From a virus: a stretch of DNA of 31,618 nt. Under the pieces are notes generated by a model. It worked only from the letters and a program-made list of their open reading frames with translations. It was not told the DNA's origin and ran no database searches. Shown here piece by piece: positions 3,203 through 29,189 of the stretch. The stretch spans positions 1 to 31,618 of IMG/VR virus record IMGVR_UViG_3300024520_000329. The stretch is one strand, 5' to 3'. Each line of letters starts with the position of its first letter. Position 1 is the stretch's first letter. Made by a program: the position numbers and the translations under genes.

Positions 3203-3891
3203 CAGTCTTTGGCGTTTGCTTGGAAAACTGCTTCCGCAAATCCCCTCGGGGTTTCGCTTCGAATGTTTTTGGTTTTTTGGCTTTTTCCTCCAAGTTTCAA
3301 ATGCTGTTGGCTATATCCCGAGCGCACTTCTACCGGAAGTGGATCAGGCATGACAAAACCGTTGCCCGTCCATAAGCAGGTTTTCTTTGGGTACGCATCT
3401 CGGGCGGCAATGTAATCAGGCCAGCGCGGGTGCCGATCATCTTCTGGCAAATACCCTCCAAATTCATAAGGGTTAAATGTATGATCCGGTTTGCCACAGT
3501 ATGAGCTGAAGGTGCTCACCGGGTTTTCAATCAGGTAGGGGGCACCCAGGAAATCAGCAACCTCCCGCGAGGTGGCAAAGAGGTCTAGGGACAGGCTCAG
3601 GGCTCTCGGCCCTTTTGCCATGAAATGAGCAGCACCCGAAACCGCGACGTGAGTGCATTCGGGGAAAGCACTCACAAACGTCACCCGATCAATTATATCA
3701 CGAAAGGGGAGCCAGCCATATCGCAGATCGGCCCCCACCCTGAACAGATTGTGTTGATGATTGTCCCTCGTAATTCCTCGGGGGTGCTGGATGTCCACGA
3801 TGTAGGCGATGAACCCAGCATTTAGCCACGGCTGAACCATCACACCCGTGAGATCAAACAAACTAATTATGATATTTTTTCCAGAGCCCAT
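3202..3891 (-). CDS. DNA cytosine methyltransferase-like phage protein
   Basis: A 229-aa protein. The N-terminus (ISLFDLTGVMVQPWLNAGF, residues 8-26) matches an SAM-binding motif I variant seen in a compact phage family annotated as DNA cytosine methylases. FPECTHVAVSGAAHF (about 74-88) corresponds to the motif IV region with Pro-x-Cys-Thr, and YLIENPVSTF (about 119-128) to the Glu-Asn-Pro motif. The length is well below typical C5 methylases and no clear target-recognition domain is seen. It could modify phage DNA or act on another substrate. The ATG overlaps the upstream stop by one base within the early operon. Confidence 0.65.
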   Translation of the reverse strand: MGSGKNIIISLFDLTGVMVQPWLNAGFIAYIVDIQHPRGITRDNHQHNLFRVGADLRYGWLPFRDIIDRVTFVSAFPECTHVAVSGAAHFMAKGPRALSLSLDLFATSREVADFLGAPYLIENPVSTFSSYCGKPDHTFNPYEFGGYLPEDDRHPRWPDYIAARDAYPKKTCLWTGNGFVMPDPLPVEVRSGYSQQHLKLGGKSQKTKNIRSETPRGFAEAVFQANAKD

Positions 3892-6409: not shown

Positions 6410-6607
6410 TAACACAAAACCCGCCGTTGCCCATCACTACTTGTTGTTTCCTATTGCCAGACAGTTCACATGATACCGGCGCACCCACCCCCTATGGAAA
6501 TGAGGGATACCCCCCTCTGAAAAAGAGGGAGGGGTGAAGTCAAGGCCCTTAATTGGGGCAATTAAATCCCCACCGTAAAACCCCACAAAAACAGGCCCAA
6601 ATAAATG

Positions 6608-6633
6608 CGGACAAACTTTCGAAATGTTGTCCG
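6608..6633. promoter_or_regulatory. 26-bp dyad, candidate repressor operator 1
   Basis: Arms CGGACAA (6608-6614) and TTGTCCG (6627-6633) flank an internal palindrome TTTCGAAA (6617-6624), so the whole element has twofold symmetry apart from two central-arm pairs. Typical size and shape for a dimeric repressor. Confidence 0.5.
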
Positions 6634-6654
6634 AATTAAGTCAAGGCCGGAACT

Positions 6655-6681
6655 GGGACAATCAGCCAGGCAATTTGTCCC
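6655..6681. promoter_or_regulatory. 27-bp dyad, candidate repressor operator 2
   Basis: Arms GGGACAA (6655-6661) and TTGTCCC (6675-6681) share the GGACAA/TTGTCC half-sites of the dyad at 6608-6633. Centre-to-centre spacing is about 47 bp, near four and a half helical turns. The middle is not symmetric here. Confidence 0.5.
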
Positions 6682-6707
6682 GATTATTCTATTGACACAA
6701 CGGGCAC

Positions 6708-6740
6708 AAAAAACCCCCCCCTTGTGAATCAAGGGAGGGG
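6708..6740 (-). terminator. Rho-independent terminator upstream of the control region
   Basis: On the minus strand CCCTCCCTTG pairs with CAAGGGGGGG across a five-base loop and is followed by six T. It lies just after the stop of the RHH ORF and would isolate the integrase region transcript from the early operon. Confidence 0.75.
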
Positions 6741-6756
6741 TGGGAAATTGGGCCGG

Positions 6757-6906
6757 TTAAAGCTCCTTCATGGGCGGTTTCAGTTTGTCATTTTTCAGGG
6801 CTTCTTTTACTACATGCCGAATAAATTCGGACTGTGGCATATTCAATTTCGCCGCTTCCAGTTTGATGGAATGGGCAATTTTTTTATCAACCCAGGCTGA
6901 AACCAT
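6757..6906 (-). CDS. Ribbon-helix-helix ORF overlapping the membrane-protein gene
   Basis: From the ATG at 6906 this reads 49 aa: MVSAWVDKKIAHSIKLEAAK, then LNMPQSEFIRHVVKEALKND. That is the strand-helix-helix pattern of Arc/CopG-type repressors, with the hydrophobic and Gly/Asn-turn spacing expected. The same frame is open further upstream without a normal start codon, and reads KRRKPPQRSTDQR just before the Met, which looks like natural coding sequence. It overlaps the C-terminal end of the membrane-protein gene in the -1 frame. It may be an independent gene or the end product of a frameshift (see findings). Confidence 0.5.
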   Translation of the reverse strand: MVSAWVDKKIAHSIKLEAAKLNMPQSEFIRHVVKEALKNDKLKPPMKEL

Positions 6907-9027: not shown

Positions 9028-9082
9028 TGGTACGCCCTGAGGGAATCGAACCCCCAACCTCCTGATCCGTAATCAGGAGGGC
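9028..9082 (-). other. attP core: 3' half of a tRNA-Arg(ACG) gene
   Basis: The minus strand carries the anticodon arm CCTGA-TTACGGA-TCAGG (anticodon ACG), a variable loop, a T arm with GGTTCGATTCCC, and the 3' acceptor strand AGGGCGT-A-CCA ending at 9028. The 5' acceptor strand that should pair with AGGGCGT, and a normal D arm, are absent upstream, so this is a partial tRNA. Integrases commonly use such a 3' tRNA segment as the identity region with attB. The likely attB is a host tRNA-Arg(ACG) gene that integration would restore. Confidence 0.75.
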
Positions 9083-9179
9083 ACGCACCCCTTCACTACC
9101 CTTGACCATACTTTTCCTAGGGAATTTGAAAAACGTGCCGCCATTGCTACCCTTTGCCACCCTATGCACCCCCCCAAAA

Positions 9180-9738: not shown

Positions 9739-9911
9739 GCAGCCTTTTTCGCCCGGTGCTTTGCCCACCTGGTCTGAGCCGCTTTGCGGCAGATTTCACT
9801 CCGGCCTGGCTTCCCTTTGTTTGCGGTGCCGCCCCGGCGCCCCATGTCTGCCATGTACTTTGAAACGGCCGGTGGCACGTCGGGTTTTGTTTTCTTTTTG
9901 CTCATGCTCAT
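9720..9911 (-). CDS. Small basic Gly-rich protein (KGG-like)
   Basis: A 63-aa protein with the start at MSMSKKKTKP, chosen for the AGGAGGAATT ribosome site; a Met two codons later is an alternative. DMGRRGGTANKGKPGRSE with a following basic helix (CRKAAQTRWAKHRAKK) is the pattern of small basic phage and bacterial proteins around R-R-G-G/K-G-K-P, which I associate with nucleic-acid binding. The end (EEENA) duplicates that of the neighbouring gene. Confidence 0.55.
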   Translation of the reverse strand: MSMSKKKTKPDVPPAVSKYMADMGRRGGTANKGKPGRSEICRKAAQTRWAKHRAKKAAEEENA

Positions 9912-24069: not shown

Positions 24070-25571
24070 TATATTGGATCTCCGTTTTGGTTTTTTTCGA
24101 TTTCCGGGCTTTCCGGTTTCAGCGGTATATCCTCCCGCAATTCCGTGAGCTCGGTGAAATTGGCGTTTGCAAACGTGGGAAGCTGATTGAAGATTTCCCG
24201 GTAATCACTCACACCAAATTCTTCCGCCACCTGTTTGGCATCCGCAATGTTTTGAGCTTTGCGGCGCATAATGTTCAGGGCTGAATCCCCAAAGCTACTG
24301 GCCACATCGTCCAGGCTCATGGCGCCGAGCCCTACATATTTCAAATCAGATTCGACCTGGCTGCTCCGGTTGATCCAGCGGAATCGGGGTGGCTGGAATC
24401 GTACCTGAAACGGTTTTTTCACTTCAGGCGGAATTGACAGATCCCCATCCGCAACCCATTTAGAAACCCGCCACCGATAGATCCGATGCAATAAGCTGAT
24501 GAGGCAATTCTGTTCCTCCTCCACGTTGGTTTGATACTGCATCACAACGCCCTGGCTGGCGCTGAATGAACTGCCGCCAATGTCGCCCAGCATAAATTCA
24601 TAAGGCACCCCGATTGACGCGCCCACCTTTCGGAGCTCAAAAGCCAGCCATTGAATGCCGTCCACATTGGGCCGGCCGTTGGGAGCAATTGTTGAAACAT
24701 CTTCCCCGGGCTCCAGATAGTGAAACGTGCCAGGCTCAAAGTTTTCCAAACGCCCCTCGGTATCCTGTTCGTTTTCCGGCGCCCGGTTGGCCAGTTCAAA
24801 ATTTACGGACCCTTCCCGTTTTATAACCGCTGATAAACTGGCCGAAACCTTCGCGGCAATCATTTCGATTTGTTCGTACTCACTCACGTCCATTAGTGTA
24901 TTGACTGAGGCCGCCAGGGTAGGAACGCCGCGCCATTGGCTTGGGCGCATCCGTTTCATGTAGAGGGAAAAGTCAGAAGCCGGCACATTCACCACATTGG
25001 TCAAAACCCCGTTCACCCTCTGCCCAACCTGGTATTCAATCGGCCGGCCGTAGTCATTAACGATGACGCCGTTTTTGTCCGGGTCATCCTCATTGAATCC
25101 GGTGCTGCCCATCGGCGACCCAATCCGCGACCCCTCAAAAACCTGAATCTGCCCATTATCCAAATAGAGCAAACCTATATCCCCAAAGAAAAGCGGCGCA
25201 TCCACAATCTCCTGTTGGAGCTCCGTCATGTTCATCATCCCGGTGATTTCCGGCGCCTTGCTCCATTCCTCCCATAGGTCCAAAATCTGTTCGTTATATT
25301 TTTCATTCGGGCTGGCGGGTTGTGGCTTTATCCCTGAGCCCACAACGTCGGTGCGCTTCAGCCTGGAAATGCTTTTTACGATGGGATTGTTCCGCTTCAT
25401 GTTGAGCAGATTCCCCACAAGCTCATCCCGGTCAAAAGCTGAAAGCTCAACATTCTCATCCCGGATTGGGTGATAGCCCTTCGCCTTCCGGTAACGATTT
25501 GAAACAACGGCATCATATCCGAACAAAATCCGGGCCGCTTTTTTTGCTCTATTCCAAACCTTCAATTCCAT
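24069..25571 (-). CDS. Portal protein (lambda gpB family)
   Basis: A 500-aa protein. RFQPPRFRWINRSSQVESDL and the surrounding region, ERKYNEQILDLWEEWSK-like N-terminal sequence and the ASIGVPYEFMLGDIGGSSFS motif (about residue 325) match lambda-type portal proteins. The portal dodecamer is the DNA entry vertex and docks the terminase. It overlaps the gpW-like gene by 10 bases and the next gene by one base. Length fits the family. Confidence 0.88.
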   Translation of the reverse strand: MELKVWNRAKKAARILFGYDAVVSNRYRKAKGYHPIRDENVELSAFDRDELVGNLLNMKRNNPIVKSISRLKRTDVVGSGIKPQPASPNEKYNEQILDLWEEWSKAPEITGMMNMTELQQEIVDAPLFFGDIGLLYLDNGQIQVFEGSRIGSPMGSTGFNEDDPDKNGVIVNDYGRPIEYQVGQRVNGVLTNVVNVPASDFSLYMKRMRPSQWRGVPTLAASVNTLMDVSEYEQIEMIAAKVSASLSAVIKREGSVNFELANRAPENEQDTEGRLENFEPGTFHYLEPGEDVSTIAPNGRPNVDGIQWLAFELRKVGASIGVPYEFMLGDIGGSSFSASQGVVMQYQTNVEEEQNCLISLLHRIYRWRVSKWVADGDLSIPPEVKKPFQVRFQPPRFRWINRSSQVESDLKYVGLGAMSLDDVASSFGDSALNIMRRKAQNIADAKQVAEEFGVSDYREIFNQLPTFANANFTELTELREDIPLKPESPEIEKNQNGDPI

Positions 25572-25801
25572 TTTTCAAAATCCACTCGGTTTTTGCCGTG
25601 CGCCTTTAGGCTTGTTGAACGCATTGCAATCAGGCGTTCCAGGTTTTCAATCTCAGCCCATAAATCTTTGCGGGAGGAATAGACAAAGGTGCGATCTCCC
25701 AGGGTGTAACTTGCCGAGGGGCTTGTGGATATTGCCGTGTATGCCGTGACCAGATTATCCCTGAGGGTGATCAGGGTGCTTTGTGCAATACGTTCCGCCA
25801 T
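25562..25801 (-). CDS. gpW-like head-tail joining protein
   Basis: A 79-aa protein. MAERIAQSTLITLRDNLVTA, then YTLGDRTFVYSSRKDLWAEI and ENLERLIAMRS fit the fold and size of lambda gpW (helix, beta-hairpin, helix). The position between terminase and portal is the same as in lambda. A copy of the 25-bp motif ends one base before the ATG, leaving no space for a Shine-Dalgarno site. gpW seals the portal after packaging. Confidence 0.75.
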   Translation of the reverse strand: MAERIAQSTLITLRDNLVTAYTAISTSPSASYTLGDRTFVYSSRKDLWAEIENLERLIAMRSTSLKAHGKNRVDFEKWN

Positions 25802-25829: not shown

Positions 25830-26534
25830 TTACGGGGAAATCCTCACGCCGGGATATTTCTTCCCAATTCTGGCGGCTGATTTGAAAACTCCCATTTTCA
25901 TATTTGTTTGGAAATACGCCTGGCGCCCGCCCATTGCTGATTTGATTGCGAAATGGCCCCTGGCGTTTTTGTTTAAACACGCGACAGAATTATTATAAAT
26001 GTGGATTTGAAACTTGTGGAATCGATGCAGCTGCCTCCCGTTCTCCGTTGTGTTTTTATAAAATGACGTTGCTTGGGATGCAATTGCCTTGTCTAAACTG
26101 GCTTTTGATTTGAATCGTGAACTGTTAAGGCGCGCTTTTCGGGCCATTATTAGCCACACAGCTTTACCTGAAAACACTCTGAGCTTCGCGCGTTTTTTGT
26201 AGAAATCCAATTTCTTTTTCATCTCGTCCCAGACTGGTTTTGGATAATAGTTTGAGGTGCTATATTTCTTTCCCCGCATAAAGACAAAGGGCACCAGATT
26301 CGGATTTTGCTCAATGGGGCCGGTTTTCCGGCTTTGCTTTGTAGAGCGTTTGATGGTGTAGCGAGATTGGATGTCTTGTTTGTTGGCGCGTTTTGTCAAA
26401 GTTGACGCCCGCACCAAAATCGCCGCCGCTTCCGATTTTACTACCTCCGAGGCTGCAACCCCCTTTCCCATGCTCCGGCTTAGTTCTCCCAAATAGTTGT
26501 TAAACTCCCTGACATGGATTCGGTTCGTCATCAT
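25830..26534 (-). CDS. Basic virion-module protein of unknown function
   Basis: About 234 aa from the ATG at 26534 (a second ATG follows immediately). The long ORF to 26684 extends into a repeat and is not needed. The protein is very basic, with helices NNYLGELSRSMGKGVAASEV and EMKKKLDFYKKRAKLRVF, then KAVWLIMARKARLNSSRFKS and a Gly/Arg/Lys-rich C-terminus. It may be a neck or minor tail protein, or an accessory to packaging, as it sits between terminase and gpW. A motif copy lies just before the start. Confidence 0.55.
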   Translation of the reverse strand: MMTNRIHVREFNNYLGELSRSMGKGVAASEVVKSEAAAILVRASTLTKRANKQDIQSRYTIKRSTKQSRKTGPIEQNPNLVPFVFMRGKKYSTSNYYPKPVWDEMKKKLDFYKKRAKLRVFSGKAVWLIMARKARLNSSRFKSKASLDKAIASQATSFYKNTTENGRQLHRFHKFQIHIYNNSVACLNKNARGHFAIKSAMGGRQAYFQTNMKMGVFKSAARIGKKYPGVRISP

Positions 26535-26536
26535 CT

Positions 26537-26561
26537 CACTAAAGGGGCAAACATCTACCTT
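26537..26561 (-). promoter_or_regulatory. Five-copy 25-bp junction motif, copy at first head gene
   Basis: Minus strand: AAGGTAGA, 11 bases, TTAGTG. It ends two bases before the ATG at 26534. The bases next to the A-type repeat continue directly into it. Confidence 0.7.
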
Positions 26562-26564
26562 CCA

Positions 26565-26667
26565 CGGTTGCCCCAAAACGCCCCTAAAAAAAACGCACGC
26601 CCTGGAATCGGTGTTTTTTTGGGGCACTTTTTCGGGGACCGCGGCACCGGAGCCCACGATTTGTGGG
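26565..26667. repeat. Long direct repeat type A, copy 1
   Basis: About 103 bp, repeated at 26693-26795 with a 128-bp period and only a few substitutions. It contains arms TGCCCCAAAACGC and GTTTTTTTGGGGCA that can pair, an AAAAAAAACGCACGCC segment, and GGACCGCGGCACCGGAG. Open frames across both copies are poor and non-conserved in detail, so I treat this as non-coding. It shares GCACTTTTT-CGGG with the hairpin repeats that follow. Confidence 0.85.
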
Positions 26668-26692
26668 CTTAAACGACATTGCACCCCTTCCG

Positions 26693-26795
26693 CGGTTGCC
26701 CCAAAACGCCCCTAAAAAAAACGCACGCCTTGGAATCGGCGTTTTTCTGGGGCACTTTTTCGGGGACCGCGGCACCGGAGTCCACGATTTGTGGG
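26693..26795. repeat. Long direct repeat type A, copy 2
   Basis: Same unit as 26565-26667, with GGCGTTTTTCTGGGGCA in place of GGTGTTTTTTTGGGGCA. The upstream flank CTTCCGCGGTTG extends the similarity a further six bases on the left. Confidence 0.85.
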
Positions 26796-26851
26796 GTTGT
26801 TTGGGTTCCCGCCAACGAGGTGGGCCAAATTTTTCGGGATTTTTCGAAATG

Positions 26852-26926
26852 CACTTTTTTTTCGGGAGTCAATTTGTGTTAGTAGCCGACTGTTACTAAC
26901 GGTTTTTGACTCTGAAAAAAAAAGTG
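26852..26926. repeat. 75-base nested inverted repeat, unit 1
   Basis: Outer arms CACTTTTTTTTCGGGAGTCA and TTGACTCTGAAAAAAAAAGT(G) are nearly complementary; inner arms GTTAGTA and TACTAAC also pair around GCCGACTGT. It is the first of three complete units with a fourth partial one. As RNA or cruciform it would fold into one long stem. Confidence 0.85.
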
Positions 26927-26958
26927 TATTCCTAAATTTTTCGGGATTTTTCGAAATG

Positions 26959-27033
26959 CACTTTTTTTTCGAGGGTCAATTTGTGTTAGTAGCCGACTGT
27001 TACTAACGGTTTTTGACTCTGAAAAAAAAAGTG
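26959..27033. repeat. 75-base nested inverted repeat, unit 2
   Basis: Same as unit 1 with one small change (CGAGGG for CGGGAG), 107 bases downstream. The 32-base spacer between units 1 and 2 contains AAATTTTTCGGGATTTTTCG. Confidence 0.85.
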
Positions 27034-27151
27034 AATGGCCAAATTTTTCGGGGGCAATGCGCTGAAAGCCCTGTTTTTGTGGGGTTTTTCGTTTTGTAGG
27101 CCGGGCTTCGCTTTCGCACAATATCTGCTCAGCGTATTTTTTTTCGAAATG

Positions 27152-27226
27152 CACTTTTTTTTCGGGAGTCAATTTGTGTTAGTAGCCGACTGTTACTAAC
27201 GGTTTTTGACTCTGAAAAAAAAAGTG
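27152..27226. repeat. 75-base nested inverted repeat, unit 3
   Basis: Identical in outline to unit 1, 300 bases after it. Units 1/2 and 3/4 are both 107 bases apart, so the whole pair appears duplicated. Confidence 0.85.
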
Positions 27227-27258
27227 TATTCCTAAATTTTTCGGGATTTTTCGAAATG

Positions 27259-27312
27259 CACTTTTTTTTCGGGAGTCAATTTAGTAAGTGGGCAGTCTGT
27301 TACTAACGGAAA
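27259..27312. repeat. Inverted repeat unit 4, truncated
   Basis: Retains the left arm CACTTTTTTTTCGGGAGTCA and the inner TTACTAAC, but the inner left arm has changed to TTAGTAAGTGGGCAGTC and the right outer arm is missing. Confidence 0.8.
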
Positions 27313-27380
27313 TTAAAAGGGGGGCAAGTTCCTAATCTCGGAAATTGGCTTTTTTTATCCACAACCGCGGCCGACTTTTT

Positions 27381-29189
27381 TCACCAGATTGATTTTTTTG
27401 ATGATTTTCTGGGACGGCTGGGACGGCTGGGACGGGCTTTAGAAGTCTTTGCCAGGTCTTTGCCCGTTCGTATCACGGCGCCGCCCAGGCCGAAAACATG
27501 GGAAAGGGTGAGAATGTACGTTTCACAATCCCAGTAATGATCTTGCCTGTGCCCTTCCACAACCCACTCAAATTTGACTTTGCCTTTCCGGTCCACTTTC
27601 TCTTTTTGATTAGTGGAAAGCATTTGCCGGATGTATTCCGAATCTGTTTCCTTATAAGTGAACCAGTTCAAATTTGTCCCGTTGCGGCGTTTCAGCAACT
27701 CACCCATCCACACATCCTTGTTGATGTTCAGAATGTTGATGGATTTTTTAGTGAACTTCTTATCCTTCATGGGGCTGAATGGGTCTACCCCGGTCATCTT
27801 GTATGGGTGCGGCAATCGCTCCCAACCCCTGGCGCCAAACCAGAAAGGCCGGCGCGCATGGATCTCCTCATAAATTTCCTGAGTCCGGTAAGCCGTATCA
27901 CAAATGCCATAGGCGCATTCATAGGTTTCGGCCAGGGCCGTGAGGTCATCAAAGCTTGGCGCGGTGCCATGATCCACGAGCCAGCTTGTCCCGTCCTTGT
28001 CAAACCCCCGCACAACCCAAAAGAAAATCGACCGCTGCACATCAACCCCGATGATCCGATATTCACCACGAATATCGCCACGGGAATAATCACGCTCAAG
28101 CACGCGAAATGTGTCCGGGTCAATTGATCCTTCTTGCGGCCGGTACGGTTCAGCCAGCCAGCCATTCACGAATGCTTGCATGGCGCCGGGGTTTGTCCTG
28201 GCCTTCAGGTATTCCACCGCCAGCCGGCCAAAAGTTAGAATGGGGGAATAGATAGAATTGAGGTGATAGCTTCGCACCCCTGATTCAGAGCTTGAGCTAG
28301 TGGCATTCCAATTCCCATCGCGGAGCATTTTGGACTTGTGGGCATTTGTGATTTCCCCCTGGCACTCCTCGCAAATGTAAACCGTTGAGGATTCGACCAG
28401 GTGCAAATCATGTTCCGATTCAGATAAATTGGCTTTATTGTCCCACTTCAAATTCAAATCCCCCTCTGCATTTTTTAAACGGAATATGATTTTTGCCTGG
28501 CAATGGGGGCACGGCATATAGTAGCGGCGCCGGTCGCCTTCCTGAAATTCCTGCCAGATTCCCCCCGTTTCAGTAACCGGCGTTGAGCTTTGAAGCACTT
28601 TGTAATCATGGCGCCCCTTCACTCGGTCCATGCACTCCCGGCGGGTTCGTTCGTCGATCACATCAATCTCATCCAAGACCAGAACTGAAACCGGATAGCT
28701 CCGGACATTGGCCGAACTGCCGGCGCCCACCAGATTCATGGTGCACCGGGAAAATTCCTGTTTGGTGAGGGTGAAGCGATCCGCATCAATTGAGCCATCA
28801 ATGTAGTGGGGCAAGTGTTTCAGCAGGGCCTTTGATTCTCGGCAGAATGGCATCCAGCGCTCTGAGCTGAAAGTTTTGCATAGTGAGAGATTTGGAAAAA
28901 CCCACAAAATGGCTTTGGGGTCCTGGTCAATTACATGGCCCAGCATCACATAAAAGGTTGTTGTTTTGCTGGTCTGGCTGCCCCAACAGAGGGAAATCCT
29001 TTTGATTCTGGGGTTTGCTATACCCTCCAAAATCTCATTGCAATAGGGATGAAGCCTGGTCGAAAACGGCCCAGGCTGTTCCGTGATCCGGGGCGACAAT
29101 TCCACATTCTCCTCAGCCCATTCCAGCACCGTCTGTTCCTTGGGCCAGATAAAGAACCGCGCCCCAAATCGTTCCAGTTCAGTGGTCAC
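27381..29189 (-). CDS. Terminase large subunit (lambda gpA family)
   Basis: A 602-aa protein. Walker A-like GSQTSKTT at 70-77 in SLCWGSQTSKTTTFY; Walker B VLVLDEID near 169-176; nuclease region beginning IIGVDVQRSIFFWVV and YGICDTAYRTQEIYEEIHAR, then KKSINILNINKDVWMGELLK and VEGHRQDHYWDCETYIL. This is the gpA-type ATPase/nuclease that cuts at cos and drives packaging. The C-terminus is basic (SRPRKSSKKSIW). Its ATG overlaps the small subunit's stop (ATGA). Confidence 0.93.
   Translation of the reverse strand: MTTELERFGARFFIWPKEQTVLEWAEENVELSPRITEQPGPFSTRLHPYCNEILEGIANPRIKRISLCWGSQTSKTTTFYVMLGHVIDQDPKAILWVFPNLSLCKTFSSERWMPFCRESKALLKHLPHYIDGSIDADRFTLTKQEFSRCTMNLVGAGSSANVRSYPVSVLVLDEIDVIDERTRRECMDRVKGRHDYKVLQSSTPVTETGGIWQEFQEGDRRRYYMPCPHCQAKIIFRLKNAEGDLNLKWDNKANLSESEHDLHLVESSTVYICEECQGEITNAHKSKMLRDGNWNATSSSSESGVRSYHLNSIYSPILTFGRLAVEYLKARTNPGAMQAFVNGWLAEPYRPQEGSIDPDTFRVLERDYSRGDIRGEYRIIGVDVQRSIFFWVVRGFDKDGTSWLVDHGTAPSFDDLTALAETYECAYGICDTAYRTQEIYEEIHARRPFWFGARGWERLPHPYKMTGVDPFSPMKDKKFTKKSINILNINKDVWMGELLKRRNGTNLNWFTYKETDSEYIRQMLSTNQKEKVDRKGKVKFEWVVEGHRQDHYWDCETYILTLSHVFGLGGAVIRTGKDLAKTSKARPSRPSRPRKSSKKSIW

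Follow-up and report, generated by a model that had tools for sequence, protein, structure and literature searches.

The window, that is the whole stretch of DNA analyzed here, comprises 31,618 bases and corresponds to a complete virus record of IMG/VR (IMGVR_UViG_3300024520_000329), with nearly all genes on the minus strand. It encodes a terminase large subunit with GpA ATPase and nuclease parts (27381-29189, minus strand), a terminase small subunit and a ParB-domain methyltransferase near the large-subunit gene, as well as a tape measure protein, major head protein, protease, portal, head-tail adaptor and a phage integrase (7443-8840). By this content of integrase, head, tail and terminase genes, the window is a temperate tailed phage. 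The late gene next to the large-subunit gene (25830-26534, minus strand) encodes a 234-aa protein for which no Pfam or PHROG family was found. Among 50,697 phage records the best terminase relatives showed less than 30% identity, and in an attempt to trace the host, no terminase relative was found in genome contigs. Just upstream of the integrase gene, at ~9028-9084 (minus strand), a sequence resembling the 3' half of tRNA-Arg(ACG), with CCA at its end, is the probable core of the attachment site. A gene-start motif, approximately AAGGTAGAYG-N5-CCCTTTAGTAGATGG, is dispersed in the window (26559, 25825, 19789 and 12281, minus strand) and is located 5' of several structural genes in the window and in the related viral contigs L010, L012, L013 and L015.

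Between the stop codon of the terminase large-subunit gene and the next late gene we found a repeat block of 826 bp (26558-27383), the limits of which were set by the empty sites of relatives described below. An initial annotation had recognized a block of about 800 bases at 26565-27370, slightly short of this extent. On the plus strand, the block begins with two copies of a repeat A (26558-26670 and 26686-26798), 95% identical and spaced by 128 nt. The annotated pair of A copies stood, with the length corrected from 103 bp to a 113-nt register. The A repeats are followed by three full copies of a repeat B, a 75-nt nested palindrome of the form CACTTTTTTTTC/GAGTCAA/GTTAGTA-GCCGACTGT-TACTAAC/TTGACTC/GAAAAAAAAAGTG with feet GCAC/GTG(T/A). 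B1 (26852-26926) and B3 (27152-27226) are identical, B2 (26959-27033) carries the variant CGAGGGTC in the 5' arm, and a broken fourth copy (27259-27316) has an intact 5' outer arm, an altered loop and no 3' outer arm. The spacings of 107, 193 and 107 make the B pairs recur at 300. The copies, coordinates and spacings of the initial annotation were reproduced. The spacer between the B pairs (27057-27140, plus strand) holds a weak hairpin and contains CCTGTTTTTGTGGGGTTTT at 27070-27088. This sequence recurs between genes of the same phage at 6577-6595 (minus strand), and its 15-17-nt core is also present in repeated promoter-like modules of the relative G006. The region at 6410-6850 of the window looks regulatory, with GGACAA...TTGTCC palindromes and the 19-nt sequence in common with the array.

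The open reading frames tested in the block matched nothing in Pfam or PHROGs, in agreement with the annotated lack of a supported gene, and the repeat spacings of 107, 128 and 193 are not multiples of three; a coding role was therefore rejected. GANTC occurs nine times in the block where three are expected, an enrichment that follows from the sequence being repeated.

Empty and filled sites in relatives

Relatives were collected by a terminase search of viral contigs, which gave 22, and by a profile search, which gave 54 loci. Three of them, L011, L012 and L013, have a terminase 95-96% identical to that of the window and are without the block. In L011 and L013 the terminase gene ends ATATGGTAG, and the next gene begins 19 nt after the stop. 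The junction of L012 is the same save for an 18-nt tandem duplication; at 3500-3550 of this contig, at the empty site, TATGGTAG is duplicated around CCTGAGGCTG, which can be read as an insertion footprint or as a simple tandem duplication. The block was found in the independent contig L010 (IMGVR_UViG_3300040985_001996), where it measures 566 bp and consists of three B units and a half copy. The A block of the window is absent from L010, and the right ends of the two blocks differ. The 75-base unit thus occurs in L010 and is absent from L011, L012 and L013. Both filled junctions read ATATGG or ATCTGG, then TGAAAAAAGTCGG, the remainder of the 566 or 826 bp ending in AAGG, and then TAGATGTTTGCCCC, the start region of the next gene. 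Comparison of empty and filled sites shows the block to be an insertion at the ancestral terminase stop, placed precisely between TGG and TAG. The insertion supplies a new terminase stop codon, TGA, leaves the downstream start region intact, and is flanked at most by the dinucleotide CC (plus strand). Alignment with L013 over the 6-kb structural block revealed no further indel of similar size.

The initial annotation had proposed a packaging or recombination site, and the position beside the terminase gene and the iterated palindromes would be in keeping with a cos or pac site, or with a site for replication or partition. A cos or pac site would be expected in all phages with the same terminase; the block is absent from the three relatives with a 95-96% identical enzyme, and packaging in these close relatives does without it. 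At 27355 the block contains a perfect DnaA-box-like TTATCCACA, with no second one in the window, but a single 9-mer is weak evidence. The ParB-domain methyltransferase is encoded nearby; against it, L013, which has no block, conserves part of the methyltransferase region. A role of any of these kinds is thus very improbable. Even less credible is an assembly artefact, an outcome the initial annotation had allowed for. Short-read assemblies can miscount repeats, and the exact copy number may be off, but the block with its shared left 426 bp is present in an independent contig. Furthermore, L033 (IMGVR_UViG_3300024517_000716), which matches the window at 99.9% identity, breaks off within an A copy matching copy 1, as a true repeat would cause.

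In further lineages, unrelated non-coding repeats were observed at this terminase end. A GC-rich, non-coding 75-nt unit is present once in L035 and twice in L036, and in L042 (5981-6154) a 10-nt unit, TGGTGAGAGT, is repeated ~17 times starting directly at the terminase stop codon. In L040 and L041, 831 nt precede the next long open reading frame, with apparent reversed genes. A plain reading is that the terminase junction is a hot spot that tolerates insertions.

Divergence between the two carriers is unusually low within the block. The shared left 426 bp differ at four positions (0.9%), compared with 51 of 254 four-fold sites of the adjoining terminase gene (20%; Fisher p 3.6e-19), or 12 of 82 such sites in the last 600 nt of that gene (Fisher p 1.6e-7). 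The block is thus ~20 times less diverged than the four-fold sites of its neighbor, and the change in rate sits at the block edge, with three differences within the last ~22 nt of the terminase gene. On the right flank, the next gene differs at 6 of 149 positions over its first ~150 nt, beyond which divergence reaches 30-46% in places. This pattern would be accounted for either by movement of the block and its right flank between lineages after their split, by homogenization of the arrays, or by strong constraint. At 25,100-25,800 the window and L010 share a nearly identical tract beside regions with 15-40% divergence, which points to recent recombination and a mosaic history of the two genomes.

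Hairpins, exchange between copies and searches elsewhere

The long stem annotated for the 75-base palindrome, as RNA or as DNA, was borne out by predicted folding. Each full B unit gave z-scores of -5.0 to -7.0, as RNA or DNA and on the strands tested, with none of 200 dinucleotide shuffles as good, and a B pair reached z ~-9.5. Repeat A folded more weakly (z -0.9 to -3.6; copy 2, -2.4 to -3.6), and the fold of the spacer hairpin at 27057-27140 was not significant. The palindromes of L035 and L036 and an array of 59-nt units in G006 showed no clear folding beyond composition (the L036 unit gave z -2.8 in one frame), and among the arrays folded, the strong predicted hairpins thus appear peculiar to the window and L010. 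The G006 array, in a contig whose terminase identity is 77% (L069, 5191-6413), is a 1.2-kb non-coding stretch of ~18 T-rich units directly after the integrase stop. The same contig has five promoter-like modules, at 9885, 12061, 13114, 14345 and 15121 (TTGGAC and TATATT separated by a 16-nt spacer that holds a GAGGCGGCCTC palindrome), several of which end directly at ATGACGAACGAC starts, as if giving leaderless transcripts with a shared N-terminus.

The main rival to an insertion of little consequence is a functional RNA, in which hairpins of the late transcript would serve as RNase III or stability sites that uncouple a low terminase level from strong expression of the head proteins, or as antisense terminators. 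Very stable hairpins are predicted on both strands, and the variable positions of the B arms (A/G opposite U on the plus strand) still pair through G-U on that strand. Terminator-like sites, defined as a GC-rich stem with a T run immediately after it, number nine in contrast to 3.2 expected (sd 2.1), a count inflated by the repeats, and eight of the nine lie on the strand opposite to the operon. The very low divergence would also be expected of a functional sequence. However, the closest relatives lack the block and couple both genes directly, copy number and the entire A block differ between the two carriers, and no Rfam family matched the block at gathering score. The weak Rfam hits, all far below threshold, arose because the long stem matched microRNA models of eukaryotes, and were judged long-stem artefacts. 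On this evidence we regard a functional RNA as unlikely.

Sequence differences among the B copies suggest that the array has been reshuffled. In the window, B1 and B3 have one and the same sequence, yet each differs from its positional partner in L010, whereas B2 equals its partner; this indicates that array copies exchange sequence, by conversion or re-duplication. In one L010 unit the arms are unchanged but enclose the 9-nt core ACAGTCGGC instead of the GCCGACTGT of all other units, with AAA in place of TTT beside the core. The broken copy also has AAA but keeps the core in the common orientation, and the core inversion in L010 is therefore probably derived. Template switching between inverted repeats is known to produce spacer inversion and arm homogenization (PMC8604942). 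The spacer inversion in L010 matches the products expected from that account, and by this analogy a hairpin probably formed in the DNA during replication.

Searches for copies elsewhere bear on a third reading, a non-autonomous element of MITE- or REP-like type that a host transposase, with this junction as its target, would mobilize in trans. It would explain the precise empty sites, the palindromic structure, and the abrupt change in divergence at the left edge, which is what insertions falling repeatedly on one target would leave. However, B was found in its own genome only within the block, and B core, B flank and A patterns in viral contigs occurred only in the carriers and in one isolated copy of unrelated context in L032, judged a chance match. 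Phage and plasmid records gave no match to A or B, and one exact core pattern was absent from genome contigs of 84,980 species. Neither the window nor 13 relatives encode a Y1 transposase detectable with PF01797. The block ends share only CC, with no good terminal repeats, and B is without a GTAG or CGTC foot. Among the four options of the initial annotation, a MITE-like or mobile origin fared best, through the empty sites and the low divergence; the dispersed copies, terminal repeats, target duplication and transposase that should accompany it were not found. We consider such an element rather improbable. Separate from these patterns, CCCCTGTTTTTGTGGGG occurred in other viral contigs in unrelated contexts, probably by chance except for a repeated module in G006, and 12-mers common to the block and relatives were slightly above shuffles for G006 only (3 of 200 shuffles reach it).

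Origin and significance of the block

Compared with known systems, the behavior of the block most closely resembles that of the RHE, repetitive hairpin-forming elements in the mitochondrial DNA of sponges, fungi and plants (PMC2800124), minus the dispersed copies. Like the block, RHE are non-coding intergenic hairpin repeats scattered among close relatives, with tandem and block duplication and no known function, and those of Allomyces also lack a target duplication (PMC2800124). As in RHE, the hairpin insertion is intergenic and differs between close relatives; copies at several places in the genome were not found. The block further differs in residing in a phage, at one junction only, and in its longer (75-nt) nested palindrome. 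REP/BIME sequences with RAYT (PMC3733652) are likewise extragenic palindromes downstream of coding regions and plausibly transcribed. They are palindromes of 20-40 bp whose foot carries an unpaired GTAG or CGTC tag; the B unit has no such tag and is about twice as long, and the block was rejected as a member on this consensus. Dispersed copies were not found in the viral, phage, plasmid and genome records searched, nor a Y1 transposase in the window and 13 relatives. Bacterial MITEs such as Correia, RUP and ERIC (PMC2229807) share the small, non-coding, palindromic character and the presence or absence at a precise site between relatives, but comparison of the block ends with the empty sites revealed no clear terminal inverted repeats or target-site duplication, and the block has a single location. 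The spacer inversion between inverted-repeat arms in one L010 unit resembles quasipalindrome template switching (PMC8604942, PMC7202029), which is a mutational process rather than an element and would here act on a phage repeat array. Integron attC sites (RYYYAAC...GTTRRRY) were rejected, as the inner arms GTTAGTA/TACTAAC are in the opposite order and by inspection do not fit the consensus; the integrase, ~18 kb away, is a phage integrase.

On balance, we slightly favor a recent, lineage-specific, non-coding, repetitive and hairpin-forming insertion at the terminase stop, grown by local duplication and conversion. It entered between TGG and TAG, a position clear of the next gene's start signal, where it breaks neither gene. 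Growth would then have proceeded by tandem and segmental duplication of the 107-bp B unit, the 300-bp pair and the 128-bp A unit, with reshuffling by conversion between copies and, as a putative mechanism, polymerase template switching on extruded hairpins. The block may have spread between phage lineages as DNA, and is probably dispensable and nearly neutral. Stopping of antisense transcripts, or an RNase III site between the terminase and head genes, are possible RNA by-products. Several points give counterweight to the favored insertion: block copies were found at the terminase junction only, strong constraint on the sequence, i.e., function, would likewise keep divergence low, and the little-diverged right flank suggests that ordinary homologous recombination may have moved the block. 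A bolder version, a new non-autonomous, site-specific hairpin element that targets the phage terminase stop/start junction, moves between lineages and has entered the same site more than once, is decidedly doubtful.

In the compact genomes of phages, long arrays of non-coding palindromes within a late operon should carry a cost and be prone to instability. Here such an array is caught between the empty and the filled state in close relatives, and so shows how these repeats enter and grow, and the core inversion would document, in nature, that hairpins form in phage DNA. Should movement rather than constraint underlie the low divergence, the block would point to a phage hairpin element so far unrecognized; should constraint underlie it, to a new RNA signal of the late operon.
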